Position numbers and translations under genes: made by a program. The notes beneath the pieces are model-generated. The model was not told where the DNA came from. It was given only the letters and a program-made list of their open reading frames with translations, and did not search any database. Of a stretch of 64,000 bases of DNA, positions 13,350 to 49,597 are shown piece after piece. Positions within the stretch are counted from its first letter, which is position 1, and each line of letters opens with the position of its first letter. The DNA is from Myxococcales bacterium (GTDB lineage: Bacteria; Myxococcota; Polyangia; Nannocystales; Nannocystaceae), in NCBI GenBank assembly GCA_016793465.1, contig JAEUJW010000057.1, forward strand, positions 110,745 to 174,744, read 5' to 3'.

Positions 13350-13380
13350 CGGTGTAGGGCGGTAAACCCCGCGGAGTTAT

Positions 13381-15560: not shown

Positions 15561-15562
15561 TT

Positions 15563-16726
15563 TCACGACCGCCGCGCCTCGAAGGCATCGAATGCCCGCA
15601 TCGCGCCGCGACGCCGATCCTCCGGCAGCGCCTCCCAATTCGGAGCGCGTGCCGCGGGTCCCGCTTCCCAGACGATCTTGTCCATCATCGCCACTTCTCG
15701 GTCGCCTCCCTTGGCCTGCTTCCCGCGGATGATCCCCACCGGGCGCAGGCCCTTGGCGACCAGGGCGAGGTAGGTCGTCGCGCGCTCGCCGACGACGCTG
15801 TACGTCACGAACCGGCAGCCAACGGACCCGCGACGCCCGCTGGTCGGGAGTAGGTCGATCAGCCGCGATGCAAGGGCCGAACTCGCGTTCACCGGGACGA
15901 CACGTCCACGGCGATCACGTCGTGTGAGGCCCGCGACCGAGGCGATCCTGGTCAGCTCGAGGATGCCGTCGACTGGGCAAGCGCCTGGCCCCCATCGACC
16001 CGTCGGGGTGCCAGCGGTGGCCACCGCGACGAGCTCGGGCCCATGACGTCCTTCGTCTCGTTGCCAGTAGGCACCGATGGCGTACATCATCCCGCGCGGG
16101 TTGCAGTAGGGGAGCAGGGAGTGATGGCGAGCCACGAACTCGCACGCCTCCTCCTTGTCGATGCTCCGCAGTTCGAGGTGCCTTTCTGCCTCCCAGATCC
16201 GATCGGCGATCCTCGCCCTCACGTCGTCGTCGGGCACGATACCGCCGCGGGACTCCGTGTCCATGACCGCGGCGAGGAGGTCGCCGACCTCTTCGGGAGA
16301 CCAGTCGACCGTGCCGACGAGGAACGGAAGGTCGTCGGCGTCCGCCCGTGCCTCGTCGTAGTCATACTCGCCCTCGTCCTCGATGGAGCCGAGCACCGCG
16401 AGGGCGGACGCCAGGTCGATCTCACCGGCCGGCTCATCGAGGAGGGACATCGCGCGGTCGAAGATCGCGGCGGCCAGCTCGCGCGCGTGGCGGTAGCCCG
16501 GCAATGTCGCCCGGGGCACGCCCCCACGGGGGTTGTAGAGCTCGAACCAGTGAGGCGTCTGGACCCTGGCCGATGGACGTAGCCTTGTCATCGCCTGGCC
16601 GACGAGACCCTCGAGCGCGGCCCTGTTTCGCTCGATGAAGCTGTCGAGGTCGCCAGGGCTGTAGCGCAACGCGAGCGTTGCTCGCCAGCGGGGCAGCACT
16701 CGATCCAGGACGCCGGCGGGTGTCAT
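15563..16726 (-). CDS. Mom/XF1762-like GNAT-fold protein with element-specific N-terminal segment
   Basis: About 387 residues, starting 14 bp after the previous gene. Residues 5-45 (VLPRWRATLALRYSP...) match the start of two other element proteins, at 26889 and 34596. The middle is acidic. Residues about 215-380 resemble GNAT-like XF1762/Mom proteins: EFVARHHSLLPY, ELVAVATAG, ILELTRIASV, SSALASRLIDLLP, RFVTYSV. Phage Mu Mom modifies adenines in DNA and blocks restriction; this protein may do the same or a related acyl transfer. The family match was made by eye and is moderate. It is the last gene of the long minus-strand run. Confidence 0.65.
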   Translation of the reverse strand: MTPAGVLDRVLPRWRATLALRYSPGDLDSFIERNRAALEGLVGQAMTRLRPSARVQTPHWFELYNPRGGVPRATLPGYRHARELAAAIFDRAMSLLDEPAGEIDLASALAVLGSIEDEGEYDYDEARADADDLPFLVGTVDWSPEEVGDLLAAVMDTESRGGIVPDDDVRARIADRIWEAERHLELRSIDKEEACEFVARHHSLLPYCNPRGMMYAIGAYWQRDEGRHGPELVAVATAGTPTGRWGPGACPVDGILELTRIASVAGLTRRDRRGRVVPVNASSALASRLIDLLPTSGRRGSVGCRFVTYSVVGERATTYLALVAKGLRPVGIIRGKQAKGGDREVAMMDKIVWEAGPAARAPNWEALPEDRRRGAMRAFDAFEARRS

Positions 16727-16740
16727 CTGGGCCTCATGCG

Positions 16741-17319
16741 TCAGCCGCGGCGTGCTGCCAGCGCGAGCAGACCGACGAGAACGCCGACGGTGGCGACCTT
16801 GCGCGTCGTCGTGATCGGCTGCATCGCGACCTGGACCGCCGGCGACTCCACCGCGCCGCCGGCCCAGCGCGCGCCGGGGTAGAGGGCAGCGGTCAGCGTC
16901 CAGGGTTCGACGAACACGAGGAAGAGGTTTGCCGGCGAACCCGCGATCCGTCGCAGTTCGTAGAGGGCCGCCTCTGGATCCGACACGTACTCGAGCACGC
17001 ACGAGACGAAGACCACGGCCGAGTCGTTGGCCAGGCCGGCGACAGGGCCCTTGGTGATGTCGACCGTCCGCGTCACCGGGCACAGGGGACAGCCGTTGAT
17101 GTCGACGCAGAGGTCGCCGCAGCCGTAGGCCCGGATGATGCGGGTATGGGCCCCGGCGTCGGGATCGCCGACGACGACGAGCGGGCGCTGCAGCAGCGCC
17201 GCTCGTCGTGCGGCAGCATCGAAGGCCCGCCGGCGGGCTTCGAACCGATGGAGGGCCATCCCGGCCTCCGTGAACAGCGCCCCGCCGAGGGCGAGGCGGG
17301 CGAGTCTTCCGATCGTCAT
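16741..17319 (-). CDS. Tail-anchored methyltransferase-like protein
   Basis: About 192 residues. LVVVGDPDAG and a later FVSCVLEYVSDPEAALYEL segment recall the first strand/loop and the post-IV region of class I SAM-dependent methyltransferases, though the glycine loop is degenerate (GDPDAGAHTR). A cysteine group (CGDLCVDINGCPLCP) sits in the middle. The C-terminus is a single membrane segment ending ALAARRG, and the N-terminus is also hydrophobic (RLARLALGGALF). Activity is uncertain. It may be a membrane-bound particle component that kept a methyltransferase fold. Confidence 0.5.
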   Translation of the reverse strand: MTIGRLARLALGGALFTEAGMALHRFEARRRAFDAAARRAALLQRPLVVVGDPDAGAHTRIIRAYGCGDLCVDINGCPLCPVTRTVDITKGPVAGLANDSAVVFVSCVLEYVSDPEAALYELRRIAGSPANLFLVFVEPWTLTAALYPGARWAGGAVESPAVQVAMQPITTTRKVATVGVLVGLLALAARRG

Positions 17320-17346
17320 GGTCGTCGTCTCCTGGGCTCGGGCCTG

Positions 17347-17973
17347 TCAGTTCGCGGTCGACGGCGGGAGGGCTGGCGGCTGCTGGGTCTTGCGGGCGCC
17401 GCGACCCGAACGGCCCGGCTGGGTCTTCTTCCGGCTGGCGATGACACGGACGAGGATCTTGATCTCCTCGCCACCGAAAGTGCAGGTGCTGAGGTGCCCG
17501 TCCGGCGACCCGGGGGGGAACGTGACGTCGACGGTGACGCCGCTTACGAGCCGGATAGGGAGCACGCAGCCCGCCGCCGCCTCCTCGGGCGTGAGACGGA
17601 CCTCGTAGGGCCTGGACTCCTTCGGCTTGCGGGCTTCGCTGGCACGCACCCGCGTGACCACCCGCTCGGCGAAGTCGGACATGGTGCCGGGGAAGCTGTC
17701 CTCGGTCTCGTCGGGCACCCCGGCGAGTTCCTGGACCGCGGCAGCATCGGCGGCCATCGTCCGGCGCAGGTGTTTGTTGATGAATTGCCGGACCCGCCGC
17801 GGATCCGCGCCGGTCGCCAGGGCCGTGTGGATGCACCGGATGAGGTTCATGGTCGATCCAGTCCCGGCGATGAACACGTCGGCGTAGAGCGACGACTCCC
17901 TCTCGGTCCCTTTCAGGTCCTCCAGCTCCCGACGAATGCTCTCGAGGATGTCTTGCAGCGGCACCTTTTCCAT
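17347..17973 (-). CDS. Protein with DnaJ C-terminal-like domain, no J domain
   Basis: About 208 residues, preceded by a strong AGGGAGG ribosome site. Residues 1-120 are helical and charged. Residues about 122-182 (VRLTPEEAAAGCVLPIRL, VDVTFPPGSPDGHL, IKILVRVI) follow the pattern of a DnaJ/Hsp40 C-terminal beta domain: EEA..G, then PPG..DG, then a closing strand. The tail is basic and Pro-rich. There is no HPD-containing J domain, so Hsp70 recruitment is not expected. It might act as a scaffold or assembly chaperone, which is inference. It lies between the ParA-like gene and the methyltransferase-like gene. Confidence 0.5.
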   Translation of the reverse strand: MEKVPLQDILESIRRELEDLKGTERESSLYADVFIAGTGSTMNLIRCIHTALATGADPRRVRQFINKHLRRTMAADAAAVQELAGVPDETEDSFPGTMSDFAERVVTRVRASEARKPKESRPYEVRLTPEEAAAGCVLPIRLVSGVTVDVTFPPGSPDGHLSTCTFGGEEIKILVRVIASRKKTQPGRSGRGARKTQQPPALPPSTAN

Positions 17974-18020
17974 GACTTCGCCTCCCTTCCTATCCCTTCA
18001 CGTCACACACTTGCGGCCGC

Positions 18021-18743
18021 TCAGTTCGCTCCCTGCAGCCGGATCTTCTCGAAGTACGCCGCGAGCTTGGGCCGCGCGGCCTCCTTGCGAGCGGGGTAGT
18101 TCTTGTCCGTTTCCCACCCGCGCTTCGGTTTGCCGCGATAGGAGAGGCGGCGAAGGTCGCCGCACGCGTCCGCGAGGCCCACGTGGGCGAACATGTCCGC
18201 GACGAGGCGCTCGAGGACGGTGGCAGCCGACGATTTCGGGTGGGAGGACCACACAGGCCTCATGGCGTCCCAGCACTGAATCATCGCGTCGCTGTTCGGG
18301 ATCGTCCGCGCCAGCGTCACGTTATCCCGGGCCTCCGCGGGGAGGCGGTGGGGGGCCCAGCCGTGCGTCGGGAGCCACCACACCGCGCCTTCGAGTGAGA
18401 GCCGGAGACTCATGGTGTGGTCCAGGTTCACGTCCCGGCGCATCGGCACAATCCACAGGTCCGGCTTCACGACGTCGAGAAGGCCGGAGCCGGACTGGAT
18501 GTCGAGGACGAGGAGGTCGCAGGTCTCCGGCAGGCTGTCGAGCCCGTCCTGCCAGCGTACGCCTGCGTGCCCAAGCTGGGGCCGAAGGTCGTGGTTCCAG
18601 CCGAGGGTGACCCCGACGACGTCGAGCCCGTGCTCCTGGCCGCGGATGCAGGTGGACGCGGTGTACTGCGTGACCCCCACACCACCCTGCGGACTGTAGA
18701 ACGCGATGATCCTCGGTCGTGTCCCCTTGTTGTGTTTTTCCAT
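18021..18743 (-). CDS. ParA/MinD-like ATPase fold with degenerate P-loop
   Basis: About 240 residues with a GGAGAAGAGG ribosome site. IIAFYSPQGGVGVTQYTAS aligns with the ParA deviant Walker A (KGGVGKT), but both lysines are replaced (Gln19 and Val24). The Walker B-like DLLVLDIQSGSG and the later WIVPMRRDVNLDHT are kept. ATP hydrolysis is therefore doubtful. The second half is basic. The start overlaps the next stop as TAATG. A second lysine-less member is at 36682, so the element uses this fold in two places. Confidence 0.72.
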   Translation of the reverse strand: MEKHNKGTRPRIIAFYSPQGGVGVTQYTASTCIRGQEHGLDVVGVTLGWNHDLRPQLGHAGVRWQDGLDSLPETCDLLVLDIQSGSGLLDVVKPDLWIVPMRRDVNLDHTMSLRLSLEGAVWWLPTHGWAPHRLPAEARDNVTLARTIPNSDAMIQCWDAMRPVWSSHPKSSAATVLERLVADMFAHVGLADACGDLRRLSYRGKPKRGWETDKNYPARKEAARPKLAAYFEKIRLQGAN

Positions 18744-19234
18744 TACCTCTTCTCCTTCTCCTGCTGTGCTGCGATGGTCCTCAATTCGAGAGCGTGCCAG
18801 CCGCCCCAGCGGCCGCCGTCGAGGAGGAGCCCAAACTTCTCGAGGTCCCGGAGCATGACCCGCGAAGCGGCGTCGTTCGCAGCCGCTGCCATGTCACCGA
18901 CACTACGGGACGTCGTGCTTGTGCTCCGGAGCGCGTAGACGGGGCCCTGCTGACCCGGGAACAGTTGGCCCTCGTGGAATAATTCCAGGTGCATCCACCG
19001 ATCGGTGAAGCGCAGCCGCGTCCAGCGGCCATCGATGAAGTGTTCGTCTGCGCGGGCTTTCAGGTACTCGAGCGCGGCGCTGTCGACAAAGATGTCGGAG
19101 CTGACCCGGAAGGTACGCCCGAACGCCACCATGGTTGCCGGCGCGGTGCGCCGGCCGAACATCATGCCGCTGAGGAACCCGGCGCCCACGCTGAGCGCCC
19201 CTCCGAACACCAGCCACTGGTTTGCGCGAGTCAT
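18743..19234 (-). CDS. Small membrane-anchored protein of unknown function
   Basis: About 163 residues. One N-terminal membrane segment (LVFGGALSVGAGFLSGMMFG) is followed by RR and a soluble part of mixed strand/helix (FIDGRWTRLRFTDRWMHLELF). No known family was recognised. It is translationally joined to the ParA-like gene (TAATG) and follows the protease gene by 2 bp. Confidence 0.7.
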   Translation of the reverse strand: MTRANQWLVFGGALSVGAGFLSGMMFGRRTAPATMVAFGRTFRVSSDIFVDSAALEYLKARADEHFIDGRWTRLRFTDRWMHLELFHEGQLFPGQQGPVYALRSTSTTSRSVGDMAAAANDAASRVMLRDLEKFGLLLDGGRWGGWHALELRTIAAQQEKEKR

Positions 19235-19236
19235 GT

Positions 19237-19947
19237 CTAGCCCTCCTCCGCCGCCGCGAACAAGCGCCGCCTCGCCCGCCGCTGGTCATCGACGAGCCCC
19301 GCCCAGGCCGGCTCGGCCAGCTCGACGGGGATCCCCAGGGCCTCGAGTTGCGACGCGTGGATGGGCCAGGCGTGCGGGGCCGCCTCGCCCATGAACACGC
19401 TCATCGCCCGCTCGAGCGCGGCCGGCGGTGCGTCCGCGAGGCGCTCGCGCAGCGTCTGGCGCAGGTAGCCCTCGACCGCCTTGCTGTACTCGGCGGCGAG
19501 CGGATGAAGCGGGTTCTGCTCGTGGTCCTGGGTCGGCTGGATGTGCCTGGCGCGCTGGCCGTAGATGACGGGGTCGACCGCCGAGAGCGCGGCGTTCTTG
19601 CCGAGCAGGAGCCGCCGGGCGTTGAGGGCGACGATCGTGCCGCCCGAGAACGCCATGTATGGCACCACCGCCGTCGAGCGCGGGAACTTGCGGAGGGCGT
19701 CGGCGATGAGCACGCACGCGGCGACCTCGCCGCCGTCCGTGTGCAGCACGACGAACACCTCTTCGCCGGGCGCGTGCTCCAGTCGCTCCAGCACCTCCTC
19801 GGCGAACCTCATCGTGATGACGGGGGTGACGATCGGGATCACGTGCCGCGGCAGCCGCGACGGGCGGGCGCGCTGGTGAAGCCAGGTGATCGCTCCGCCG
19901 ATGAACGCGGAAGTGATGGCGGACCGAATGATGAGACTACGAGACAT
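19237..19947 (-). CDS. Membrane-anchored ClpP-fold serine protease, SDH (serine dehydrogenase proteinase) type
   Basis: About 236 residues from ATG 19947. An N-terminal membrane segment (IIRSAITSAFIGGAITWL) precedes the ClpP/crotonase-fold part: VLHTDGGEVAACVLIADAL, YMAFSGGTIVAL with the likely nucleophile Ser in SGGT, and SAVDPVIYG. These are the three typical blocks of SDH-type proteases (PF01972). As part of a run rich in membrane proteins it could process particle proteins, as head-maturation proteases do in tailed phages, but that role is inference. Confidence 0.75.
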   Translation of the reverse strand: MSRSLIIRSAITSAFIGGAITWLHQRARPSRLPRHVIPIVTPVITMRFAEEVLERLEHAPGEEVFVVLHTDGGEVAACVLIADALRKFPRSTAVVPYMAFSGGTIVALNARRLLLGKNAALSAVDPVIYGQRARHIQPTQDHEQNPLHPLAAEYSKAVEGYLRQTLRERLADAPPAALERAMSVFMGEAAPHAWPIHASQLEALGIPVELAEPAWAGLVDDQRRARRRLFAAAEEG

Positions 19948-19952
19948 CGTGC

Positions 19953-20840
19953 TTATGCTCCTGCCGGCGCCGGGGCTCCGACTTGGGCGGCCTGGCCGCT
20001 CCTGGACGCGGCGGTGAGGACGAGGGTTGCGAGGCCCAGCGTGCCGATGCCCGCGACGACGTAGGGGGCCCACGCGAGGATCTTTGCGAGGTTTTTCGCC
20101 GCCTGCTGGGCCCCATCCGCGACGTCCCCGGCGGTGTCGACGATCTGCGACGCGCCGCTCTCGACCTTGGTGAACAGCACCGCGAGTGGGTTGTCCCGCA
20201 AGAAGTCGATGTCCCAGGTGCGGATCGCGTTGTCCCACGCCGCCGCGAGGAGTGGGTCGTCGGTGGGATCCTTGTCGAAGATGCTGCCGTCGTTGATGAC
20301 GCCCTGGTTGTCGAGCAAGATCACGATCGGCGGGCTGCCCTCATGTGGGAGGACCGTCAGCCAGGGGTTCTTCGTCCAATACTTGTCGATGCTGCGGAGT
20401 ACGTCGCTGTACTTGAGGCGTGCGTCGGTGAGGGCGCCGTCCCATGCGTCCGCGTTGAGGGCGCGGACGAGGTCGGTGAGCGGTCCGCGGTCCGACTCGG
20501 GGATCAGCATGAGCGCGGCGAGACGAGAACGCAGGTCGCGGTGCGGGTTGGTCAGGGCGCTTTGCAGCGCGAACCTGGCGGCCGGCGGCTTGCCGTCGTC
20601 GGTCCGCAGGTGCCACTTCGGATGGAGCATGTAGAGGATGCCCTCCTCGCGGATCTGGTTGCCCCACCGCGCCTCCTTGTCAGCGTTCGCCTTGGCGATG
20701 CCGTCCTTCGTCGCGGAGCTGTAGACCGCGTTGAGGATGAGCAGCGCCTCCCACTTGCGGGCGTCGAGCTCGGCCACCGGGAGGACCGACAGCTCATAGA
20801 CCTTCTTCGCGAGGACGGCGATGTCCTTGTTGTCAGACAT
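19953..20840 (-). CDS. Tail-anchored protein of unknown function
   Basis: About 295 residues from ATG 20840, overlapping the upstream stop by 8 bp. A mostly helical soluble part with a short hydrophobic strand (SPPIVILLDNQGV), then an amphipathic stretch (VDTAGDVADGAQQAAKNL) and a C-terminal membrane segment (YVVAGIGTLGLATLVL). No family was recognised. There is no signal peptide, so insertion would be from the cytoplasm after translation. Confidence 0.7.
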   Translation of the reverse strand: MSDNKDIAVLAKKVYELSVLPVAELDARKWEALLILNAVYSSATKDGIAKANADKEARWGNQIREEGILYMLHPKWHLRTDDGKPPAARFALQSALTNPHRDLRSRLAALMLIPESDRGPLTDLVRALNADAWDGALTDARLKYSDVLRSIDKYWTKNPWLTVLPHEGSPPIVILLDNQGVINDGSIFDKDPTDDPLLAAAWDNAIRTWDIDFLRDNPLAVLFTKVESGASQIVDTAGDVADGAQQAAKNLAKILAWAPYVVAGIGTLGLATLVLTAASRSGQAAQVGAPAPAGA

Positions 20841-22365
20841 TGGGTGCCTCGTTTGCGTCCGGCTCGTCGTCGGGTTCCGTGGTGTCATCGAGCGTCAGGT
20901 CGGAGACTGCGTCGTCGAGGCGGCTGCGCTCGCGCGCTGCCGCCTCGGCGCGAAGCTGGCGTGGCGTCGGCGTCGTGGTCTGCGGGCTGGTCAGGGTCAG
21001 GATCACAGCCGCTGCAGGGGTGAAGCTGGGGGAGCGGGATGAAGTTGACCCGCCCGCCGATGGGGTCGCAACGCGCTCGGTCGGCGGCACCTGGTGGGTT
21101 GGGGGGGTTGGGTCAGGTTCACCGCGCGTCGACACGGCGGCGAGACGCGGCCGGGTCGCCATCACATCGGGGGCCGGTGGCGAAGCCTGCTCCACCACGG
21201 GGGACGCACCTGTGACGGTCGGCTGCGGCGCCGCGACGTGCGGCACGACCGTGGGAGGCGCCGCCTGCTCCACCGGCTGGACGGTCGCCACGGCTGCCAC
21301 GGTCGGCGATGCTTGCTGCACCGGAGGCCGAACCGGGAGCACCCTCGCGGCGCCGTTGACGGCCGGCTTCGGCGGAGCCTGCATGGGCTGGTCGGTGACG
21401 CCTTTCGCGGCCATGTCGACCGGCCGCGTCGGCAAGGCGCCGAACAGCGGCGCCTTGGGCTGGAGTGCCGCGGCCGCGATGTGGTGCACGGTCTCCCCGA
21501 CCATGCCGACGATGTCGACGATGGACTCGATCTTTTCGCCGATCCTGGCGTGCTCGGCCTGCGTCGCGCTCGCCTGCTCGGCGAGGAGCTCGCGGAGGTT
21601 GACCAGCGCCTGTCCGTGCTCGCCCGTCGACTGGGCCACCGTCTGCACCTCCTCGCGATGCTTGGCCAGGAGCTCGCCAAGCTGCTGGCGGTGCTCGTGG
21701 TCTGCCTGCGCCTGTGCCCGCCGGTGCTCCGCGAGGATGGCCTCCATCGTCGCGGCGTGCTGCACCTGCTGGGCTTCGGTCTGCCTGGCGAGTTGGACAC
21801 GATGATCGGCGAGCACCCGCTCGAGCGTGGCGGCCTGCTCGTCGGCGCGAACCAAGGACGGCGGCGTCGGCGGGGGCAGGTCGAGGGTGGGCGGAGCGGC
21901 AGGGCCCCGCCGCGGGGAGCTCGCCTCCACGGCCTGCGGCGTGAAGTCCGGCGGCGGCGGGGTTTGCGGGCTGCGCTTCGGCGCGGAGGGCTCGGACGTT
22001 ACGTCAGGAGCCGCCTGGGGTGGGGTCTGGGGCGCCGGAGCCTCCGCGGCGCGGGCCTCGGACGGGCTTGGCGCTCCGTTGGCGCTGGCTTGCGCAGCGT
22101 CGGACTCCGCCGGGTCGCCGAAGATCGGGACGATGCGGTCGCCGAGCTTGCGATAGGCGATCACGGTCGCCCTCTCTGGGGCCGCCGGGCCAGGGCCAGG
22201 TGGCGCTCCGACCGGAGGGGAGTGCATCGACACCGGCGGCACCGGGGAAGCCGCCGCCGTCGGCGGCGAAGACCGCATCCGGCGCCGCTCGCGGATGGAC
22301 CGCCAGCCGGTCAGCATGTCGTGCAGGCCGACCAGTGTTTGATGGGGATCGCTGAAGCTGATCAT
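20833..22365 (-). CDS. Pro/Ala-rich coiled-coil protein
   Basis: About 510 residues from ATG 22365. A short N-terminal segment (SFSDPHQTLVGLHDMLTGW), then a long Pro/Ala/Ser-rich region, a central coiled coil at about residues 195-320 (repeated AxxxEAILAEHRRAQAQADHEH-like heptads), and a second Pro/Ala/Thr/Val-rich region to the acidic C-terminus. The shape is that of an extended rod or scaffold. No family was assigned. Confidence 0.7.
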   Translation of the reverse strand: MISFSDPHQTLVGLHDMLTGWRSIRERRRMRSSPPTAAASPVPPVSMHSPPVGAPPGPGPAAPERATVIAYRKLGDRIVPIFGDPAESDAAQASANGAPSPSEARAAEAPAPQTPPQAAPDVTSEPSAPKRSPQTPPPPDFTPQAVEASSPRRGPAAPPTLDLPPPTPPSLVRADEQAATLERVLADHRVQLARQTEAQQVQHAATMEAILAEHRRAQAQADHEHRQQLGELLAKHREEVQTVAQSTGEHGQALVNLRELLAEQASATQAEHARIGEKIESIVDIVGMVGETVHHIAAAALQPKAPLFGALPTRPVDMAAKGVTDQPMQAPPKPAVNGAARVLPVRPPVQQASPTVAAVATVQPVEQAAPPTVVPHVAAPQPTVTGASPVVEQASPPAPDVMATRPRLAAVSTRGEPDPTPPTHQVPPTERVATPSAGGSTSSRSPSFTPAAAVILTLTSPQTTTPTPRQLRAEAAARERSRLDDAVSDLTLDDTTEPDDEPDANEAPNV

Positions 22366-22379
22366 GGACTTTGGTCCTT

Positions 22380-22658
22380 TCACCTGCGCCGACGCGTGCC
22401 GCGTAGGCCGAACGCGGAGCGCTCCGCGACGATGGTGTACGTTCCGGGGTTGAGGATGATGAGCGGCGCGCGGGGCGTCGCGTGCAGGCAGTAGCTCGCG
22501 GGCTCGCCCGCCTTCTGCCGCGTGATCTGTAGACACCCGCGGACGAGCACGAATGCGACGGCGTCGCCGGGGCCGACGACTTCGAGGCTGTACTGGCCGC
22601 GGGCCATGACGAGCGCGTCCAGGTGCATGGAGCCGGCGCTGGCGAAGTTAATTTCCAT
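22380..22658 (-). CDS. Small beta-rich protein, possible particle or spike component
   Basis: About 92 residues, nearly all predicted strand: ALVMARGQYSLEVVG, VAFVLVRGCLQITR, APLIILNPGTYTIVAE, ending in RRRR. The pattern of eight or so short strands with turns would fit a small jelly-roll or beta-barrel. No family was recognised. The start overlaps the stop of the upstream 61-residue gene by 11 bp. Confidence 0.6.
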   Translation of the reverse strand: MEINFASAGSMHLDALVMARGQYSLEVVGPGDAVAFVLVRGCLQITRQKAGEPASYCLHATPRAPLIILNPGTYTIVAERSAFGLRGTRRRR

Positions 22659-22833
22659 GGCCGTCCCTCCGGGGTCCCCCCAGCGTGTGCGCCGCGCCGA
22701 ACGCGTAGCCGATCACGAGGCCCGCGAGCATGGTCGACGCGCCGGTCACGATGAGCGCCCAGCCCTGGCGCCGCCGGTCCTGTGCGAGCTGGGCCTGGCC
22801 GTCCGTATCGGGAAGTTTCGAGTACGCCTTCAT
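22648..22833 (-). CDS. Small single-pass membrane protein
   Basis: 61 residues: a charged N-terminus, then one membrane segment (WALIVTGASTMLAGLVIGYAFG), then a short basic tail. Its start overlaps the stop of the M23 gene (ATGA). No family was recognised. Small membrane proteins of this size are common in lipid-containing phages, but this alone proves nothing. Confidence 0.65.
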   Translation of the reverse strand: MKAYSKLPDTDGQAQLAQDRRRQGWALIVTGASTMLAGLVIGYAFGAAHTLGGPRRDGHGN

Positions 22834-23732: not shown

Positions 23733-23734
23733 GA

Positions 23735-24271
23735 TCAGATACCTCCCCTTCCATCCTCGAAATGACGGGCGTCGCCACCGTGGTAGTAGCGGTCCTCGAT
23801 CTCGTCGATCTGCAGGCCGATCTCGAAGTCCGCCACCGTCTGGGCGGCCACCTTGAACGAGGGCGACTTGACCAGGCCCTCCTCCGTGGCGCGTACGGTC
23901 GCGGCGGCCAGGAGGGCCACGACGCGGCGCTGCGTGGTGGTGTGAAAGCGCCAGCAGAGGAGCACGCGGTGAGCGGGTGAGAGCCCGTCGATGACCTCGC
24001 TGGCGATCCGGCGTTGCTCGGCCATCAGGGCCTCGCGCTTCTCGTCGCGGTGCATGCCGAGGAGCATCTGCAGGTGCGCGCCCGGCCATTCCTCCTGCGG
24101 GACAGGGGCCTCGTGGTCCCCGCTCCACATCTCCTCGGCCTCGTCGGCGAGCCGGCGGGCGAGCTCGGCCCGATTTGCCGTCTCGAAGTGCCGGACGATG
24201 ATCGCCAGCTCGTCCGCGGGCAGCCTCTCCAGCGCCCGCGCTGCGAGGGCGATGAGTTCGTCGTTCGTCAT
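23735..24271 (-). CDS. Helical protein of unknown function
   Basis: About 178 residues from ATG 24271, which overlaps the stop of the preceding gene (ATGA). Mostly acidic/basic helices (LAARALERLPADELAIIVRHF) and no membrane segment. No family was recognised. Confidence 0.65.
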   Translation of the reverse strand: MTNDELIALAARALERLPADELAIIVRHFETANRAELARRLADEAEEMWSGDHEAPVPQEEWPGAHLQMLLGMHRDEKREALMAEQRRIASEVIDGLSPAHRVLLCWRFHTTTQRRVVALLAAATVRATEEGLVKSPSFKVAAQTVADFEIGLQIDEIEDRYYHGGDARHFEDGRGGI

Positions 24272-33335: not shown

Positions 33336-33358
33336 GTTGTCCTCGGGCGCGGGGTGGC
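33335..33358 (+). repeat. 24-bp direct repeat, copy 1
   Basis: Identical over 24 bp to 34608-34631 (starts tgttgtcctcgggcgc). This copy holds the ribosome site of the 2148-residue gene. The two copies flank the zinc-ribbon/HTH gene. Confidence 0.9.
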
Positions 33359-33375
33359 GGTCATCTCCACGACGT

Positions 33376-35668: not shown

Positions 35669-35669
35669 G

Positions 35670-36602: not shown

Positions 36603-36681
36603 ATCGCGATCCGCTCCAATCCGGGAATGTACAAACGAGCGCGCCCGTGGGCGCTCGAAGTCGTAATCTATCTAGTCGGCG

Positions 36682-37434: not shown

Positions 37435-37435
37435 G

Positions 37436-39565: not shown

Positions 39566-40101
39566 GGGGACAAATCGTAGATGCAGTAGTACGCGCCGAA
39601 TCCGGGCAAGCTGCCATTCTCAACGCAGGTCATGTAGGTGGGACAAGGCAAATTGTCGCAGGTCAGGACGCACAGCCCCTTTTCTCCTTCGACGGTTTGA
39701 ACAGGCTCGCAGGTCCCAGAGAAGCCTTGAAAGTCTCCACAGGGCTCGCCGAGCACGCATGGCTGGGCGCAGATGCTGCCTGCGCTGGTTTCAATAACTC
39801 CGTCCCAGAGGCACGCAGCGCGCTCTCCAACGGGCGGACATGCATCCGCATTGTCAGCGCACTTCTCGCTCACGCAGTCGAGGTAGAACGGGTTCCTTTG
39901 TTCGGACACCGCCGAGAGTCCACACCCGCAAGTCTTCTCGGTTTGCACGTTGCCGGGATAGGCCGGGTTCTCGCAGTACTCGTTCTCGGGGAGCCCCGTC
40001 GACTCGGAGCTGGACTCGTCGCCCTTGCTGTCGCCGCATGCGAAGCAGGCGGAGGTCAGGGCCAGGAAAAGACCGTGGGTGAGGGTGCTGTTGATGCGCA
40101 T
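39562..40101 (-). CDS. Cysteine-rich lipoprotein
   Basis: About 179 residues from ATG 40101. A signal sequence (LTHGLFLALTSACFACGDS) contains a lipobox-like stretch before Cys. Then comes an acidic Ser/Glu linker (GDESSSESTG) and a domain with about 18 cysteines in small loops (TCGCGLS, CLWDG, CVLTCDNLPCPTYMTC). The style is that of myxobacterial surface lipoproteins. It stands out in a run of otherwise signal-less proteins and may alter the host surface. Confidence 0.75.
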   Translation of the reverse strand: MRINSTLTHGLFLALTSACFACGDSKGDESSSESTGLPENEYCENPAYPGNVQTEKTCGCGLSAVSEQRNPFYLDCVSEKCADNADACPPVGERAACLWDGVIETSAGSICAQPCVLGEPCGDFQGFSGTCEPVQTVEGEKGLCVLTCDNLPCPTYMTCVENGSLPGFGAYYCIYDLSP

Positions 40102-40153
40102 GTCGGCGGTATACCGCAGCGCGGTCTCGCGCGTCGAGGCCGCCAGTTGGGCT

Positions 40154-41167
40154 TCAGCCTGCACGGGCGACCTCCTGGACGTGCTGGCGCAGGCAGGGGT
40201 CGGCCGAGCCACGGGCGAGCTGCTGTAGCTCGGGTCCGAGGCTGGGGAGGGCTCGAAGCGTGGCGCGACGGACGGCGAAGAAGGCGGCGAAGCGGCGGAC
40301 GATGTAGTTGTACGCCGGAGCGGCGATGCGTCCGCGAGGACCGTCGAGGCCGGCGACGTGCAGGCTGCCCTGGTGCACGTGCAGGAGGCCGCCGTGGCGG
40401 TAGAGGCGGCCGGGCTCCGCGCGACCGGGCTGGTAGACCGGCAGGCGGGCGAGGAGCGGCGCCGTGTGCATGATGAAGTGGCGGACGATCGCCGCGACTT
40501 GGCGGGCGTCCTGCTGCAAGTTCTGCCGCGGCTCGAGCATGCTGACTGCGACCTGCAGGCCCTCGAGCGCGGGGCTCGTACCCTGCGAGGGCCACCGCAT
40601 CCCCGGCCCGACGCTCTCGAGGCGCGTGCTGTAGACCCACGGGAACGTGCCCAGGTGGAGCACGAGCGGCGTGGTCCATCCACAGGCGCTCTCGGCCCGG
40701 GGCGGGGGACCGGGCCACCCGTCGCCGAAGTAGCCGGGGGCCGTGTCGGGGTAGAACGCGCGGAGCGAGCGGTCGCCCTCGGAGTAGCACGCGCCGGTCT
40801 GCAGGGTTGTTGGGTCGGCGGCGACGCGCCAGAGCTCGCCGGTTCGCCTCGCGGTGGCGGCGAGCTGGCGAAGGATCGCCGACTGCACTCGGGCTTGCTC
40901 GGCGCTGGCGTTGGCCACGCGGGCGTGCAGCGAGCGCTCGAACGCGGCGAGGCCGGTCGCGTTCGTCGCGACGATGCGGTCGTCCGTCGTCGGGATCGAG
41001 GTCGGCATCGCGGCGAGCTGTTGGGCGAAGCCGAGGGCTTCGGCGATCACCTGCCATTCGCGGCGCAGCCACGTCGACACGCCCATCGGTGAGCGCAGGT
41101 CGAAGTCGCTGGCGACGTCGGCGAGTGCGTTGATGTCGTCGCCGTAGCAGGTGAGGTCGGGGATCAT
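40154..41167 (-). CDS. Protein of unknown function next to the transglycosylase gene
   Basis: About 337 residues from ATG 41167, which overlaps the preceding stop (ATGA). The N-terminal half is helical (WQVIAEALGFAQQLAAM, QARVQSAILRQLAATARR). The second half has strands and an aromatic loop (PYFGDGWPG-like: APGYFGDGWPGPP), then a basic helix (YNYIVRRFAAFFAVRRATL). No membrane segment or known family was seen. Coupling to the lysozyme-like gene suggests a joint role. Confidence 0.65.
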   Translation of the reverse strand: MIPDLTCYGDDINALADVASDFDLRSPMGVSTWLRREWQVIAEALGFAQQLAAMPTSIPTTDDRIVATNATGLAAFERSLHARVANASAEQARVQSAILRQLAATARRTGELWRVAADPTTLQTGACYSEGDRSLRAFYPDTAPGYFGDGWPGPPPRAESACGWTTPLVLHLGTFPWVYSTRLESVGPGMRWPSQGTSPALEGLQVAVSMLEPRQNLQQDARQVAAIVRHFIMHTAPLLARLPVYQPGRAEPGRLYRHGGLLHVHQGSLHVAGLDGPRGRIAAPAYNYIVRRFAAFFAVRRATLRALPSLGPELQQLARGSADPCLRQHVQEVARAG

Positions 41168-42015
41168 GAAATCTCCTTCGGCAGTGCGCCGACGAGGGCC
41201 GAGAACACGGCGGGGACGCCCGGCCATGCGGACGCATCGAGCTTCGCGGGGATGGTGCTCGTGTCGAGGATGTCGATGCCGAGTTTGATCGCGTCCTCCA
41301 TGAAGCGGGCGCGAACACTCTTGTAGGTCGCGCCGTCTCGGCCCTTGCCCAGCAGCGACGGACTGGCCCAGCCGGCCTTGATGTCGGCGTGGTCGTCGAT
41401 GCGGTATTGGGTGAGCAGGCGCTGCATGTACACGCAGGCGCCGAAGGCGGCCGCGCGCGGCTGGAACACCAGCTCCGGCGGGGCGTTGAGGAGCGGCGCC
41501 CGCTTGCCGACCTCGGGCACGCCGGTCCACAGGAAGTAGGGCGCGAGCAGGCCGAAGAGGCCCCCGCTGCCGAACTCCGCCGCCTGCTCGCCGTAGCGCA
41601 GCGGCGGGTTGCGGGCCTTGTTGTTGTTGTAGGCCGCGCGCGAGTCGTCGCGTTCGTCCTGCTCCTTCGCGGCGTTGCCGTTGTGCGCCGAGGTGATGTA
41701 CTGCGATTCCCGGAAGGCGATGGCGCTAAACAGGCGAGCCGTGCCGACGATCTTCGCGGTCTCCTCCATCAGCATGAACAGCGGGCGAAGGTCGGCGGGG
41801 GTGTCGCCCCAATTCTTGGACAGGTCGCCGCGGACGTCGGCCGCCTTGGGAAGCGCGGCCAGGTCGATCGGCGGCAAGTTGCCGCTCCCCGAGCTGGGCT
41901 GGTTCGTCGTCCCCGAGCTCGCCGCGCTCGCGCGTCGCCCGGCGAGGAACACGGCGCCCCCGATCCCGAGCGTCGCGCCGAGCGTGCCGAGCTTGACCCA
42001 AATGCTGCGGCTCAT
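41164..42015 (-). CDS. Membrane-anchored lysozyme-like lytic transglycosylase
   Basis: About 283 residues from ATG 42015, overlapping the previous stop (ATGA). An N-terminal membrane segment (LGTLGATLGIGGAVFLAG) followed by RR anchors it. The domain from about 75 resembles SLT/lysozyme folds: FSAIAFRESQY with the likely catalytic Glu, and EFGSGGLFGLLAPYF where a GxxGLxQ-like turn is expected. Together with the M23 protein it gives the element two cell-wall enzymes, as needed for entry through or exit from the wall. Confidence 0.72.
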   Translation of the reverse strand: MSRSIWVKLGTLGATLGIGGAVFLAGRRASAASSGTTNQPSSGSGNLPPIDLAALPKAADVRGDLSKNWGDTPADLRPLFMLMEETAKIVGTARLFSAIAFRESQYITSAHNGNAAKEQDERDDSRAAYNNNKARNPPLRYGEQAAEFGSGGLFGLLAPYFLWTGVPEVGKRAPLLNAPPELVFQPRAAAFGACVYMQRLLTQYRIDDHADIKAGWASPSLLGKGRDGATYKSVRARFMEDAIKLGIDILDTSTIPAKLDASAWPGVPAVFSALVGALPKEIS

Positions 42016-42908
42016 GTCGGTTCCTCCGTGGGTCGCGGGGCGGTCGTCGGCGAGCTGGCGGCCGTGGGAGCCGCGAGCGGGACGGGACGACGACGGCGGC
42101 TGCGAAGCGCGTAGAGCGTGACCACGGCCGTCGTAGCGACGGTCGCACCCGTAGCAATGACCGCCGGGTGCCGCCAGGAGAACGGCATTGCGGTCGGCGG
42201 GCTGGTCTCCGTTTGGCCCGTGCCGCCGCCGCCGCTCGGCCCGCCGCCGTTCGGCCCGCTGCCGTTCGGCTGCACGCCGCCGCTGGGCTGCACGCCGCCG
42301 CTGGGCTGCCCGCCGCCGCTGGGCTGCACGCCGCCGCTGGGCTGCACGCCGCCGCTGGGCTGCCCGCCGCTGGGCTGCCCACCCACCCCGCCTGCGTTCG
42401 GCGAAACGCCGCCGGGCGTCTGGCTTGTCGCCATCCCCCCGGCCACCCATCCCTGCGGGCCGATCCACTTCTTGATCGTCGCCGTGTCCCACAGGTCGAG
42501 CGCCTTGTGGAGCGGCTCCCAGGCGGCCGCATCGGGCTGCCCGCGGTCGGGGACGCGGTTGCCCGGGTCCGCGTCGGCTCCCTCCGCCTGCCCCCGCAGG
42601 AGCACGAGGGCTGCCGGCGCCAGCGCGCCGGGTGCGGGCGACCAGAGGACGTTGGCTCCGCCGCCACCACCGCGAGCATTGCTGCGCGGCGTCATGGCTT
42701 GGACCGCCGACCACGGCCAGGCGCTCGTCGGCATCGGCTTCATGCGGGCCATGAAGTCCGCGCGGGCGAGGTCCGTCGCGTCGTCGTATGCGGCCTTGAC
42801 CAGCAGGGCCACGTCCTCCTCGCGCAGCATCCGCTCGAGCCCGAGGACGCGCCGCTCGAGCTCGGCGAGCTCGATGAGTCGGAGGAGACGATGACGATTC
42901 AGCAACAT
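42012..42908 (-). CDS. Tail-anchored protein with tandem PSGGxQ repeats
   Basis: About 298 residues from ATG 42908. An N-terminal helical region (RLIELAELERRVLGLERML), a middle part, then at about 175-225 a tandem repeat of GGQPSGG/GGVQPSG units, a membrane segment (AVIATGATVATTAVVTLYAL) and RSRRRR. The repeat gives a flexible stalk between domain and membrane. The copy number is likely to vary between relatives. No family was recognised. Confidence 0.7.
   Translation of the reverse strand: MLLNRHRLLRLIELAELERRVLGLERMLREEDVALLVKAAYDDATDLARADFMARMKPMPTSAWPWSAVQAMTPRSNARGGGGGANVLWSPAPGALAPAALVLLRGQAEGADADPGNRVPDRGQPDAAAWEPLHKALDLWDTATIKKWIGPQGWVAGGMATSQTPGGVSPNAGGVGGQPSGGQPSGGVQPSGGVQPSGGGQPSGGVQPSGGVQPNGSGPNGGGPSGGGGTGQTETSPPTAMPFSWRHPAVIATGATVATTAVVTLYALRSRRRRPVPLAAPTAASSPTTAPRPTEEPT
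42261..42385 (+). repeat. Coding minisatellite (about 18- to 21-bp units)
   Basis: Tandem copies of ccgccgctgggctgc plus acg or ccg, encoding PSGGVQ/PSGGGQ on the minus strand. About seven units can be counted with small differences. This is a protein stalk repeat, not a CRISPR array. Confidence 0.85.
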
Positions 42909-42922
42909 GATGCACCTCGCTT

Positions 42923-43648
42923 CTAGACGCCGACGAACGCCCACGCGTCGCCATTGTTCATCAAGAACACCGACCGGGTGACCGGGAAGTTCGCCAGCCC
43001 GCCAGCGAGCTCGTCGCCCGCGCTCGCGGTCAGCACGGGCGTCCCGGCCCCGCTCCGCGTGAACGTCAGCATCGCGTCCTGTGGCACGAGGCCGCGGGTC
43101 GGGAGCGTGACGGCGTCGGCGTTCGCCGAGTCGTGGATGATGTGGAGCTGGCCGGTCCACGCCGGGATGCCACCCGGCCCATGCATCGTCAGCGAGGCCA
43201 CCTTGCCGGCGGTGCTGGCCGTCGTGGCCTGGGCCCAGTCGAAGAGGCGCGAGCCGAGCTCGTTCGTCCCGCCGATGCTCTCGGCGAGCAGCTCGACCAC
43301 GACCTCGGGGTTCTGCGGTGAGATCAGCAGACGCAGGCGATCGGTCGGTCGCACAAGCACGAGCCGGGTGTTGTCGGGTGTCGGCCGGTACTGCACCCGC
43401 GGCTGCACGGGCGGGCCGCTCTGCAGCTCGAAGAGGTCGCCGGGGGCGAGCGGGACGGTGGTCAGGGCGTTGATGTGGAGGAGGTACGGGTCGCCGCCCG
43501 GCACCTTGCCCCACAGCGCCGCCGGGACGATGCCGACCGGCGCCTCGAGCGACGCCTCGATCCAGCCGTCCACCTGGCGAAAGGTCGGCGTCTCGTCGTA
43601 GACGGTTACGCCGTCGAACTGCCTCGCGCGGAGTCTGATCTTGTCCAT
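42923..43648 (-). CDS. Beta-rich protein, candidate capsid or shell protein 1
   Basis: About 241 residues with a good AAAGGAGA ribosome site. Dense strand/turn pattern throughout (RLVLVRPTDRLRLLI, PEVVVELLAESI, DAMLTFTRSGAGTPVLT, SVFLMNNGDAWAFVGV), few helices, no membrane segment and no signal. This fits a jelly-roll or similar all-beta fold. It is followed by genes for anchored proteins. No sequence family was recognised, so the capsid idea rests on size, fold pattern and context. Confidence 0.5.
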   Translation of the reverse strand: MDKIRLRARQFDGVTVYDETPTFRQVDGWIEASLEAPVGIVPAALWGKVPGGDPYLLHINALTTVPLAPGDLFELQSGPPVQPRVQYRPTPDNTRLVLVRPTDRLRLLISPQNPEVVVELLAESIGGTNELGSRLFDWAQATTASTAGKVASLTMHGPGGIPAWTGQLHIIHDSANADAVTLPTRGLVPQDAMLTFTRSGAGTPVLTASAGDELAGGLANFPVTRSVFLMNNGDAWAFVGV

Positions 43649-43730
43649 TGGGATGGTCTCCTTTCATTCGATTCGGCCGCCTCGAGGCGCTTGCCGAGCC
43701 TGGACCCGGTGAACGCCCGAGGCTGGACGT

Positions 43731-44411
43731 CTACGAGGACTTGCCGCCGCAGTCGCACGACCGGCCCATCGAGCACGACGAGCAGCACTTGATGCCCTTG
43801 CCGTGGTGGACGAACAGGCGGATGTTCTCGATCTGGTTGTTGTTGCCGAGGTGGCGGATGCGGGCCTTGAGCCGATTGTTGCCGCCGACGCAGCAGTGCT
43901 GCCCCATCGCCAGGGGGACCGGCAGGAGGCCGTCGCCGATCACCGTGCCGTCCGCGTTGTAGATCTCGCTGCCGTAGTGCTTCGTGTCGAGCATCTCGTC
44001 GTCCAGGAACCACTCGATCTGGATCTCGTCGTGGTTGCTGCCGTTGTTGGCGAGGCGGTAGCGCAGGCTGTAGCAGCCGGTCGGCCACGGCGGCTTGGCG
44101 TCCTGCGACAGCAGCACCGACGCGCCCGGGACGACGGGGATCTGGCCCTCCTGGATGACGTTGATGTCGGTGCGGCCACCCCGGAAGAACCGGAACGTGG
44201 TGATCGGCGCGTAGAGCAGGTTCTCGCAGCCGTTGAGCGGCATGAGGGTGCCGCACGCCGGGTAGACGGTGCCAGCGGCGGCCGCTGCGGCGGCGGCGGC
44301 GGCCGCCGCCGGCGTGTTCGACACCATCAGCGCCGCGGGGTTCCTGCAGATCTCGGCGGCGATCTGCCGCGCCATGAAGGTCAACTTCTCTTCGGTCTCG
44401 GTATCCATCAC
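43731..44411 (-). CDS. Beta-rich Cys-containing protein, candidate capsid or shell protein 2
   Basis: About 226 residues. A short helical N-terminus, then a run of 12 alanines (about 35-46), then a beta-rich domain (PITTFRFFRGGRTDINVIQEG, SVLLSQDAK, YSLRYRLANNGSNHDEIQIEW, NIRLFVHHG) and a C-terminal cysteine cluster (CCSSCSMGRSCDCGG). It could pair with the product at 42923 as a second shell protein, as in viruses with two single jelly-roll proteins; this is inference. Its start overlaps the next stop (ATGA). Confidence 0.5.
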   Translation of the reverse strand: MMDTETEEKLTFMARQIAAEICRNPAALMVSNTPAAAAAAAAAAAAGTVYPACGTLMPLNGCENLLYAPITTFRFFRGGRTDINVIQEGQIPVVPGASVLLSQDAKPPWPTGCYSLRYRLANNGSNHDEIQIEWFLDDEMLDTKHYGSEIYNADGTVIGDGLLPVPLAMGQHCCVGGNNRLKARIRHLGNNNQIENIRLFVHHGKGIKCCSSCSMGRSCDCGGKSS

Positions 44412-44833
44412 TTCTGTCCTTTCGCCCCGGCGCTGCCGAGGAGGGTGCTCAACTCGTGGTCGATGTCGCGGCCCGTGAATGTCTTGCTGGTGCGCGTGCC
44501 GTTCATCAGCGACATGAACTCTTGATCGACCGCCGCAGGGTCCTGGGCGGGGCCGTTGGTGTTGTGGGTGCTGCCCGTCGTCGTGAACTCGGCGTCGACG
44601 ATGACGGCCGGCTCGCCCGCCACGCGGCGGGCCGCCCCGCCCTGGGCGGCGCTCGCCTGGTTGACCAGCGACCAGTGGACCAGCAGGAGCTGGCCCTCGG
44701 CCGCGCCGCGGACGAGGTCCGCCGGAGCCTCGAGGCGTAGCTCGTGGCCGTCCTCGTTGACCGCCTCGATCCGCGCGACGGGGGACTGCTCGACTGCACG
44801 CACCCGCACGACGCGAAACGTCTGGGTCGTCAT
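44408..44833 (-). CDS. Small protein of unknown function
   Basis: About 141 residues. The first half is strand-like (FRVVRVRAVEQSPVARIEAV, ELRLEAPADLV, LLLVHWSLV) and the second is polar with Thr/Asn (FTTTGSTHNTNGPAQ). No family was recognised. It has ATGA overlaps on both sides, so it is tightly bound to its neighbours. Confidence 0.6.
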   Translation of the reverse strand: MTTQTFRVVRVRAVEQSPVARIEAVNEDGHELRLEAPADLVRGAAEGQLLLVHWSLVNQASAAQGGAARRVAGEPAVIVDAEFTTTGSTHNTNGPAQDPAAVDQEFMSLMNGTRTSKTFTGRDIDHELSTLLGSAGAKGQK

Positions 44834-45285
44834 ACCTGCTCCGTCTGCGGGTGGGTCAGCGCGTAGGTGGTCGCGCCGACGATGTACATGGTCCCACCGA
44901 CCGCGAACACCGAGCGCGTCACGACGCTCTCGTCGAGCAACGCGCCGACGACGACGCCGGGCACGCCAGCGACGGCGGCAGCGGGCACGCCGCCGGGTCT
45001 CCAGTCGGCGAACTTCTGGGCGTTGTAGCCGATGGTAAAGCCGGTCACGGCGCTACCGACGACGGCGCCCACGTGATACCAGCGACCGCGACGGTACTCG
45101 CCCATCCGAGCCGTCATCTCCGCGGTCGCCTTCTGCCCGCAGATCCGTTCGGCACTCGCCTGGTCGCGCGCGTCGCGGATCTGGCGGCGCAGATCTTCCA
45201 TCTGTGCCGTGAACTTCTTTTCCACCCCAGCCTCGATACCCTTGATGAAGGATTCGGGCGTATCTCTCTGGTCCTCCGCTGCCAT
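44830..45285 (-). CDS. Small membrane protein with two or three membrane segments
   Basis: About 151 residues. A charged N-terminal coiled coil (EKKFTAQMEDLRRQIRDAR), then hydrophobic segments at about 70-90 (VGAVVGSAVTGFTIGY), 100-118 (AAAVAGVPGVVVGALL) and 123-140 (VFAVGGTMYIVGATTYAL). No family was recognised. It has a good AGCGGAGGA-type ribosome site. Confidence 0.65.
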   Translation of the reverse strand: MAAEDQRDTPESFIKGIEAGVEKKFTAQMEDLRRQIRDARDQASAERICGQKATAEMTARMGEYRRGRWYHVGAVVGSAVTGFTIGYNAQKFADWRPGGVPAAAVAGVPGVVVGALLDESVVTRSVFAVGGTMYIVGATTYALTHPQTEQV

Positions 45286-45300
45286 TTGTTTGTCCCCCCG

Positions 45301-45969
45301 TCAGTTCGGATTCCACGGTTCTTTCGGCGTCCGCGCGCCGCACATGACGCCGATCGCCAGCGCGACGCCGTCGATCAGTTCGTCGATCCACTCCCCCGGC
45401 GCGCGATGTGTGCTCGCGGCCTCGGCCTCGGCCTTCGCCTTGTCGATCAGGAAGCGGGCGTGCCGGCTCGCGGCAGCCTCCGCGTCCATCATCATCTTCT
45501 CGTGCGCCACGAAGTCGATCTTCGCCAGTGATTCCTGGTAGCGCCTTTGCATTTCGCTCGCCTGGTCGGCGAGGCGCTTGTTGTTCTCCAGCAGCGTCGT
45601 CGTGAAGCTGCTGGCCTGCGCGAGCATCCACGCCTGGGTCTTCGCGGCCCGGTCATAGGTGTCCCAGATCATCGCGTGTGCGAGCTCTACGGCCGCCAGT
45701 GTCCCGGCGTCGCCGGAAAGCACCCGCGCGGGCGGCCGCTGCGGGATGACGTGCGGCTCGATCTCGGTGGCGAGCTTTGCGACGGCCTTCTGATCGAACT
45801 CGGCGCCGTCCACGAGGATCTCCGCGGAAGGACCGTGGCGGGCGCGCAGCGCGGCGACCTCTTGTACGAGCGCGGTCGCCGGCACGCCCATCTTCCGGTC
45901 GAGGACGCGGCCGCCCTCGAGCACGAGCAATGCGTGAGTACCCCCATCCATTCGATTCGGCGCAGCCAT
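45301..45969 (-). CDS. Coiled-coil protein, first gene of the long minus-strand run
   Basis: About 222 residues from ATG 45969; starts at 45951 and 46011 (TTG) are possible and no ribosome site decides. Residues 10-90 are strand/helix (HALLVLEGGRVLD, ILVDGAEFDQKAVAKL); about 115-190 is a coiled coil (NNKRLADQASEMQRRYQESL). A weak hydrophobic stretch (ELIDGVALAIGVM) ends it. No family was recognised. As the first gene it lies nearest the presumed main promoter. Confidence 0.6.
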   Translation of the reverse strand: MAAPNRMDGGTHALLVLEGGRVLDRKMGVPATALVQEVAALRARHGPSAEILVDGAEFDQKAVAKLATEIEPHVIPQRPPARVLSGDAGTLAAVELAHAMIWDTYDRAAKTQAWMLAQASSFTTTLLENNKRLADQASEMQRRYQESLAKIDFVAHEKMMMDAEAAASRHARFLIDKAKAEAEAASTHRAPGEWIDELIDGVALAIGVMCGARTPKEPWNPN

Positions 45970-49576: not shown

Positions 49577-49597
49577 GCCTGGGCTAAGCCTCCACTT

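Follow-up and report, generated by a model that had tools for sequence, protein, structure and literature searches.

The question raised by the locus described here is what kind of mobile unit may be built by a long bacterial operon with neither tail nor conjugation genes that can be recognised. The operon lies at positions 15,563 to 45,969 of a 64,000-nucleotide stretch of DNA (hereafter the window) from contig JAEUJW010000057.1 of a Myxococcales bacterium of the family Nannocystaceae, and the original prediction was that it might encode a previously undescribed membrane-containing, tailless temperate virus. On the sequence evidence, there is hardly any doubt that the region is an integrated mobile element, and its conserved genes probably form a module for a DNA-delivering particle. 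The odds that it is a temperate virus, tailless and of membrane type, from a new lineage in Nannocystis-type myxobacteria and known from its genes alone, are about even. By the homology searches, the element is shared with the soil predator Nannocystis and with many metagenomes.

Organization and integration of the element

Thirty open reading frames (ORFs) run on the minus strand from 45,969 to 15,563, overlapping at 13 of the 29 junctions and spaced by no more than 20 bp at 22 of them; no plus-strand gene was placed within 15,563-45,969 by the gene finder. At least two of the 30 calls are weak (39,562-39,840 and 33,779-34,384). A co-directed, often overlapping operon, expected to hold about 29 genes, was thereby confirmed, and its bounds stood, while the element proved wider (∼13,338-59,372). 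Twenty-eight of the ORFs, which also served as tblastn queries, are numbered g1-g28. Pfam was searched with 28 of the 30 ORFs, PHROGs with 19 and NCBIfam with 10. The Pfam cut-offs were exceeded solely by a helix-turn-helix protein (g14), a DarB-like protein (g15), the peptidoglycan-binding domain of g18 and an SDH-family protease (g23). The G+C content is 0.689 within the element versus 0.748 in the 13 kb on its left. The borders are as follows:

13338..59372, whole integrated element of ∼46 kb (12-bp direct repeats at both ends, split kinase gene)
13338..13349, attachment repeat AGAAGCTGAACT, a 12-mer, integrase side
59361..59372, attachment repeat AGAAGCTGAACT, a 12-mer, far side
13381..14580, minus strand, tyrosine recombinase (integrase; PF00589, E 3e-21 on 13381-14556)

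The integrase gene lies at the downstream end of the operon, ending at 13,381, and AGAAGCTGAACT is found ∼30 bases beyond it, at the edge of a gene for a kinase C-lobe with TPR. The copy at 59,361 terminates another kinase piece (KPDNAML...GTPAYMSPEQ...DQFSF). Since a 12-mer shared with a site more than 20 kb away was found in 835 of 1000 random 200-bp windows, the repeat by itself was rejected as a sign of integration, and the evidence is the restored gene: when the flanks are joined at AGAAGCTGAACT, a single 752-codon open frame of a Ser/Thr kinase gene results, and a Nannocystis protein aligns across the joint (30%). The integrase, the flanking repeats and the interrupted target together identify a tyrosine-recombinase integrating element. 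The claim of a temperate lifestyle is borne out by the integrase, by the interrupted and restorable host gene and by several copies in other genomes. The N-terminus of the kinase was not found in the translated stretch of the window. A second tyrosine integrase gene (59,624-61,156) borders on this kinase gene at its KPDNAML motif and is apparently another integration into the same host gene.

Candidate capsid proteins

Structures were predicted for two products of the operon, g4 and g5:

43731..44408, minus strand, g4, predicted jelly-roll protein with a Cys-rich C-terminus, capsid candidate (AlphaFold2, eight strands in residues 79-201; fold matches; 96 homologues)
42923..43648, minus strand, g5, two beta domains linked by a helix, the C-terminal one of phage-spike type, shell or spike candidate (predicted structure; 190 homologues)

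In the PDB, the g4 model matches VP16, a capsid protein of phage P23-77, at the top rank, in a tie with carbohydrate-binding modules; capsid chains from P23-77, HHIV-2 or HCIV-1 make up six of its top seven VIA rows. A chain of SPV1 is present in the Foldseek list at a probability of just 0.16. The C-terminal domain of the g5 model resembles the spikes of tailed phages; VP17 is absent from the fold rows of g5, which is uninformative in either direction. As far as these two folds allow a comparison with Bamfordvirae, g4 is a single barrel and g5 is not listed with double-jelly-roll proteins.

By sequence, no relation of the P23-77 proteins to g4, g5 or g7 was detected, the hhalign probabilities being below 1% for the capsid proteins. 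Profile searches of the PDB with g4, g5, g7, g8, g9, g20 and g22 gave nothing meaningful, and the search of BFVD with g4 returned generic beta proteins, none of which reached E ≤0.001.

Membrane anchors, wall enzymes and protease

A crude hydropathy scan covering 29 proteins of the window was used to call membrane anchors. Near-terminal hydrophobic segments were found in g6, g9, g18, g19, g22 and g24; that of g2 lies farther from the terminus. For g7 and g23, a segment at the N-terminus exceeds the threshold only in the Nex2 orthologues (elements of Nannocystis are designated Nex, Nba, Npu and Np29). The proposed proteins with one terminal anchor were thus recovered, at about eight to nine and not clearly the ten expected. 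The proteins concerned are:

42012..42908, minus strand, g6, C-terminally anchored protein (hydropathy; kept in 5/5 colinear elements)
41164..42015, minus strand, g7, transglycosylase-like by motif, N-terminal segment (8/8 elements; alignment; no family match)
37436..39565, minus strand, g9, large divergent protein, C-terminal anchor (hydropathy; matches in Nannocystis elements)
22830..23732, minus strand, g18, M23-like peptidase with a peptidoglycan-binding domain, C-terminal anchor (Pfam, hydropathy, PHROGs)
19953..20840, minus strand, g22, conserved C-terminally anchored protein (hydropathy, homologues; missing from two of the elements)
19237..19947, minus strand, g23, serine protease of SDH/ClpP fold, N-terminal segment (Pfam, PHROGs, alignment)

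The prediction of two wall hydrolases held for g18, in which PG_binding_1 is above the cut-off (E 4e-7) and Peptidase_M23 below it (E 0.0095). The other protein, g7, went unmatched in Pfam and NCBIfam as well as in the profile search of the PDB, and is called transglycosylase-like from a catalytic-Glu-like motif judged by eye. The ClpP-fold protease was likewise upheld: g23 matches the SDH protease family of Pfam above the cut-off (E 5e-16) and the head maturation proteases of PHROGs (E 1e-5), and its PDB profile search yielded a weak ClpP row (E 0.079) behind an unrelated one (0.012).

The DarB-like protein and its N-terminal module

26889..33335, minus strand, g15, DarB-like N6-methylase/SNF2-helicase protein (Pfam; PHROG DarB)
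34596..35300, minus strand, g13, stand-alone copy of the DarB-like N-terminal module (33% over 221 aa to g15)
15563..16726, minus strand, g28, g15-type N-terminal module with a weakly Mom-like C-terminal part (module 31% over 193 aa)
24268..26892, minus strand, g16, counterpart of the C-terminal part of longer Nannocystis DarB-like ORFs

As had been proposed, the operon encodes a DarB-like polyvalent protein: g15 combines an N6-methylase and an SNF2 helicase in one giant product of 2,148 aa that matches PHROG DarB (E 3e-69). Its relatives, all of them below 60% identity, are present in 98 phage records and, among plasmids, in 1,987 records, of which 682 belong to plasmids typed as conjugative; the ten phage relatives listed share 22-31% identity across 39-47% of the protein. 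The remainder of g28 resembles PHROG Mom (E 0.029) and XF1762 (E 0.0016, below the cut-off). In Nannocystis, g13 matches mostly the N-terminus of DarB-like ORFs and is a separate ORF in Nba2 only. In phage P1 a reporter is brought into the capsid by the first 30 residues of DarB, according to the part of PMC9024508 consulted. The N-terminal module common to g15, g13 and g28 may, by this analogy, be a particle-targeting module.

Genes that were not recognised

No terminase, portal, HK97 capsid or tail protein was recognised among the ORFs scanned against Pfam, PHROGs and NCBIfam, the only tail hint being a weak similarity of g1 to a tail tube protein in PHROGs (E 0.042). Similarly, no relaxase, coupling protein, VirB4, other part of a type IV secretion system (T4SS) or transfer ATPase was recognised in these ORFs, and 20 scanned cargo proteins of Nex1 and N. 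pusilla include no relaxase or T4SS part; a hydrophobic stretch of g9 gave the only T4SS hint (TrbL, E 0.0032; 16.6 bits, the cut-off being 442). The absence of tailed-phage and conjugation genes noted in the original prediction is in agreement with these scans. Of the findings named beforehand as refuting that prediction, those open to sequence and fold analysis did not arise: neither terminase, portal or tail genes nor T4SS genes emerged, and a capsid-like fold was obtained among the two proteins folded. A scan for Walker A motifs on the operon strand of six elements found unconvincing ones only, such as the Cys-rich GCGCGKT of the g12 orthologues; the pattern is partial, as the helicase of g15 was not flagged by it either.

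Relatives of g4, g5 and g22 were not confirmed in IMG/VR and not found in 50,697 phage records, and g22, the one protein searched there, is absent from 72,556 plasmid records. Among the papers turned up by searches of the open-licence PMC literature, none has a title or abstract that describes the element.

Relatives and conservation

At E ≤0.001, 260 homologues of g22 were found among the 7,999 best candidates, alongside 96 of g4 and 190 of g5, and the named homologues of these three proteins come mostly from Myxococcales or Nannocystis. Two g5 clusters (P0291, P0299) have named members from metagenome-assembled genomes (MAGs) labelled Sulfuritalea and Gemmatimonadetes. The scan of the species-genome collection gave eight loci, every one titled Nannocystis. 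In a sample of the phylum, for which no more than six candidates were scored per genome, g22 had a match in two of 377 genomes, and one of these matches was short and partial; g5 occurs in five of 29 genomes of the family, exactly those reached via the Nannocystis loci. The carrier strains of Nannocystis hold one to three module-bearing copies. There are also two g5 loci in one MAG (G005) and two broken g5 copies in G001.

When the 28 window genes were compared by tblastn with Nex2, Nba1, Nba2, Npu and Np29, colinear matches were obtained in all five for g4-g8, g12, g13, g15, g16, g18, g22, g23 and g27, in four for g9 and g20, in three for g11 and in one for g2; no match was obtained for ten genes, and that of g28 was confined to its N-terminal module. 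The g9 of Nba2 was found with a Nannocystis query. Np29 looks broken, with g22 split, the DarB-like ORF shortened and the integrase in a fragment. In two further elements, Nba3 and Npu2, g22 is undetectable, and Npu2 is rearranged, its g9 and g15 lying on the opposite strand. Across the window and the seven other module-bearing elements, g4, g5, g7, g9, g15 and g27 are present in all eight, and in each g4 and g5 are neighbours in the same order. The dN/dS ratio is 0.06-0.32 in 61 of 61 pairs from nine genes (own Nei-Gojobori script). Judged by these comparisons, the module is conserved, co-directed and under purifying selection.

In Nex1 and Nex3 of N. exedens only the g21-g22-g27-small membrane protein end remains, in Nex1 together with an integrase; the retained genes are intact, under purifying selection and located among insertion sequence (IS) elements (L027, L013, L014; L017, L018). 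As Nex1 has ISL3, IS21 and IS66 genes, decay is likelier for both than a satellite nature.

Other conserved genes of the operon are:

40154..41167, minus strand, g8, conserved protein of unknown fold (5/5 colinear elements; no meaningful PDB profile match)
22380..22658, minus strand, g20, small conserved, apparently beta-rich protein (alignment; no match in the PDB profile search)
16741..17319, minus strand, g27, methyltransferase-like conserved protein (8/8 elements and two reduced copies; Methyltransf_11 at only E 0.092)

The products of 36,682-37,434 and 18,021-18,743 appear by eye to be ParA/MinD ATPase-like with altered P-loops; they have no Pfam or NCBIfam match and no counterpart in the five colinear Nannocystis elements.

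Mobility in Nannocystis and cargo genes

The integrase of Nba3 is 83% identical to that of Npu and 78% to that of Nex1, and within ∼75 bases after all three integrases lies CAGTA(TC or CT)TGTGGAACAA, which occurs seven times in three of four genomes (reversed control, 0). Around Nex1 its copies are separated by 27.3 kb, around Npu by 79 kb. The 79-kb stretch of N. pusilla, which also carries DISARM genes and a VgrG-like gene, may represent more than one insertion. The search for empty sites found the right flanks of Nex2 and Nba1 uninterrupted in other genomes. The left ends of these two are unfixed because the left flank of Nex2 is ∼140 kb distant, in an island, and that of Nba1 falls within repeated genes. 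Npu had no clean empty site and Nba2 no match. Nex2 lies in a ∼140-kb island relative to N. bainbridge (G001:C1:1,444,754-1,585,226) that includes a broken, reversed g5 copy.

Upstream of the operon the window contains:

46408..48360, plus strand, divergent gene at the operon head (no family match; a divergent gene in the same place in Nannocystis elements)
52293..54854, minus strand, cargo kinase resembling PD-T4-6 defence proteins (family match)
55872..57952, plus strand, cargo genes for a type II restriction enzyme at 55,872-56,771 and a cytosine methylase at 56,768-57,952 (family match)

By position and by eye, the divergent gene may encode a regulator or a protein of replication. The left end resembles a slot for defence cargo, occupied by DISARM in N. 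pusilla versus type II restriction and the PD-T4-6-like kinase in the window; the genes drmD, drmMI, drmA and drmB adjoin the N. pusilla module (L032:3615-19476). Beside the module also lies a set of genes, one lipoprotein-like (48,410-49,576) and two of unknown kind (49,598-51,286; 51,304-52,296), whose arrangement is identical in the window, Nba1 and Npu2.

Comparison with known viruses and elements

Among the closest known systems are the Helvetiavirae (P23-77, SH1/HHIV-2/HCIV-1), in which VP16 and VP17 are neighbours, as are here the single-barrel g4 and the two-domain beta protein g5. Anchored proteins, wall-degrading enzymes and proviruses are also known in that group, as far as described in the portion of PMC4958249 used. 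The element differs from it in having no detected sequence similarity, no recognised FtsK/HerA ATPase and a giant DarB-like protein; furthermore, the Helvetiavirae capsid follows a plan of two single jelly rolls, whereas in the models g4 would supply one barrel and the second g5 domain is of spike type. An FtsK/HerA packaging ATPase is listed for Sphaerolipoviridae in the relevant section of PMC8328091, and membership in this family fails because such an enzyme was not recognised in the element. SPV1 and FLiP are given without a packaging ATPase in the part of PMC8812541 consulted. With its single-jelly-roll capsid, SPV1 (Portogloboviridae) is the closest precedent for the capsid plan suggested here, yet it is an archaeal virus, and g4 was compared with its capsid proteins via the fold lists only.

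The Dar system of phage P1 also includes a DarB-like giant methylase/helicase, and the sections used of PMC9024508 and PMC5512222 make an N-terminal targeting region plausible; unlike P1, the element has no recognised portal or terminase genes. Charybdis elements are virus-like and mobile, with jelly-roll-like proteins, methyltransferases, MOM-like genes and, in the portion of PMC12324425 available, no proven capsid. They are likened here by description and differ in being marine, with a median contig of 4.3 kb.

Possible nature of the particle

Under the reading of a tailless virus, the module would build a particle in which g4 and g5 form the shell, or shell and spikes, with g6, g9, g18, g22, g23 and the small anchored proteins in a membrane inside or around it. 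Entry would involve opening of the cell wall by g7 and g18, and virion proteins would be matured by g23. The N-terminal module would bring g15, g28 and g13 into the particle, from which they would accompany the DNA into the new host and protect that DNA against restriction. With no FtsK-type ATPase, the DNA may enter the particle by co-assembly or be driven by a motor that escaped recognition. Several observations weigh against this reading. An FtsK/HerA-type packaging ATPase was not recognised in the Pfam search of 28 of the 30 ORFs. The repeat-flanked lengths, 46 kb in the window and 79 kb in N. pusilla (there perhaps with more than one insertion), exceed the 17 kb of P23-77 and the 31 kb reported for HCIV-1 in the portion of PMC4958249 used. 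The best fold match of the g4 model ties with carbohydrate-binding modules, which leaves g4 and g5 as capsid candidates only.

Three other explanations compete with the virus. Should the anchored proteins shape vesicles and load them with DNA and DarB-like proteins, g4 and g5 would be surface or receptor-binding proteins and no closed capsid would exist; several anchored proteins, the unrecognised packaging ATPase and the tie of g4 with carbohydrate-binding modules suit such a vesicle-borne element, and Charybdis elements, of similar content, come mainly from the vesicle fraction (PMC12324425, in the part available). It is nevertheless unlikely, since g4 and g5 are among the most conserved proteins, in an order kept in 8/8 elements, which is more like a structural lattice, and since two cell-wall enzymes and a protease suit virions well. 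The excess of plasmid over phage records among DarB-like relatives (1,987, 682 of them conjugative-typed, against 98), the 46-kb length, the envelope-anchored wall enzymes, the large cargo with defence genes and the weak TrbL hint in g9 would fit an integrative element with an unknown contact-dependent envelope machine that sends DarB-like proteins along with DNA as in conjugation. None of the transfer genes sought was recognised in the scanned ORFs or the 20 cargo proteins, and this explanation is rather improbable.

Least probable of all, with very little chance of being right, is the view of the element as a tailed-phage satellite or remnant that borrows capsid and tail from a helper and supplies surface and injected proteins of its own. 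The spike-like domain of g5, the head maturation protease match of g23 (E 1e-5) and the reduced Nex1 and Nex3 speak for it, but capsid, portal, terminase and tail proteins are unrecognised, and the ∼30-kb module is itself the conserved part. This module is also larger than commonly known satellites. The tailless membrane-type virus is the best-supported single reading, held at even strength mainly because no packaging ATPase was recognised, the element is long and the fold matches are tied. The original prediction is partly supported: the temperate nature, the lack of recognised tail and conjugation genes, several anchored proteins and a DarB-like protein stood, and a conserved module with a predicted jelly-roll protein beside a two-domain beta protein speaks for it, while capsid, internal membrane and particles stay predicted. 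The fullest version, put forward tentatively and with more doubt than the virus as such, is a new lineage of temperate tailless membrane viruses with a jelly-roll capsid, no packaging ATPase, a shared module loading DarB- and Mom-like protectors and a slot for defence cargo, which would be frequent in metagenomes and missing from those viral collections that were searched.

Implications

An induction test is within reach, as the carrier Nannocystis strains are designated, three of them being named collection strains or isolates. The locus makes two ideas testable, namely DNA packaging without a recognisable ATPase and the loading of several protective proteins by one N-terminal module. As of 2016, single-jelly-roll viruses all came from extreme environments, according to the section of PMC4958249 used. 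If particles are confirmed, a lineage would prove to have escaped present-day detection of viruses, and single-jelly-roll viruses would extend to ordinary soil and sludge bacteria, with an integrated lifestyle and defence cargo.

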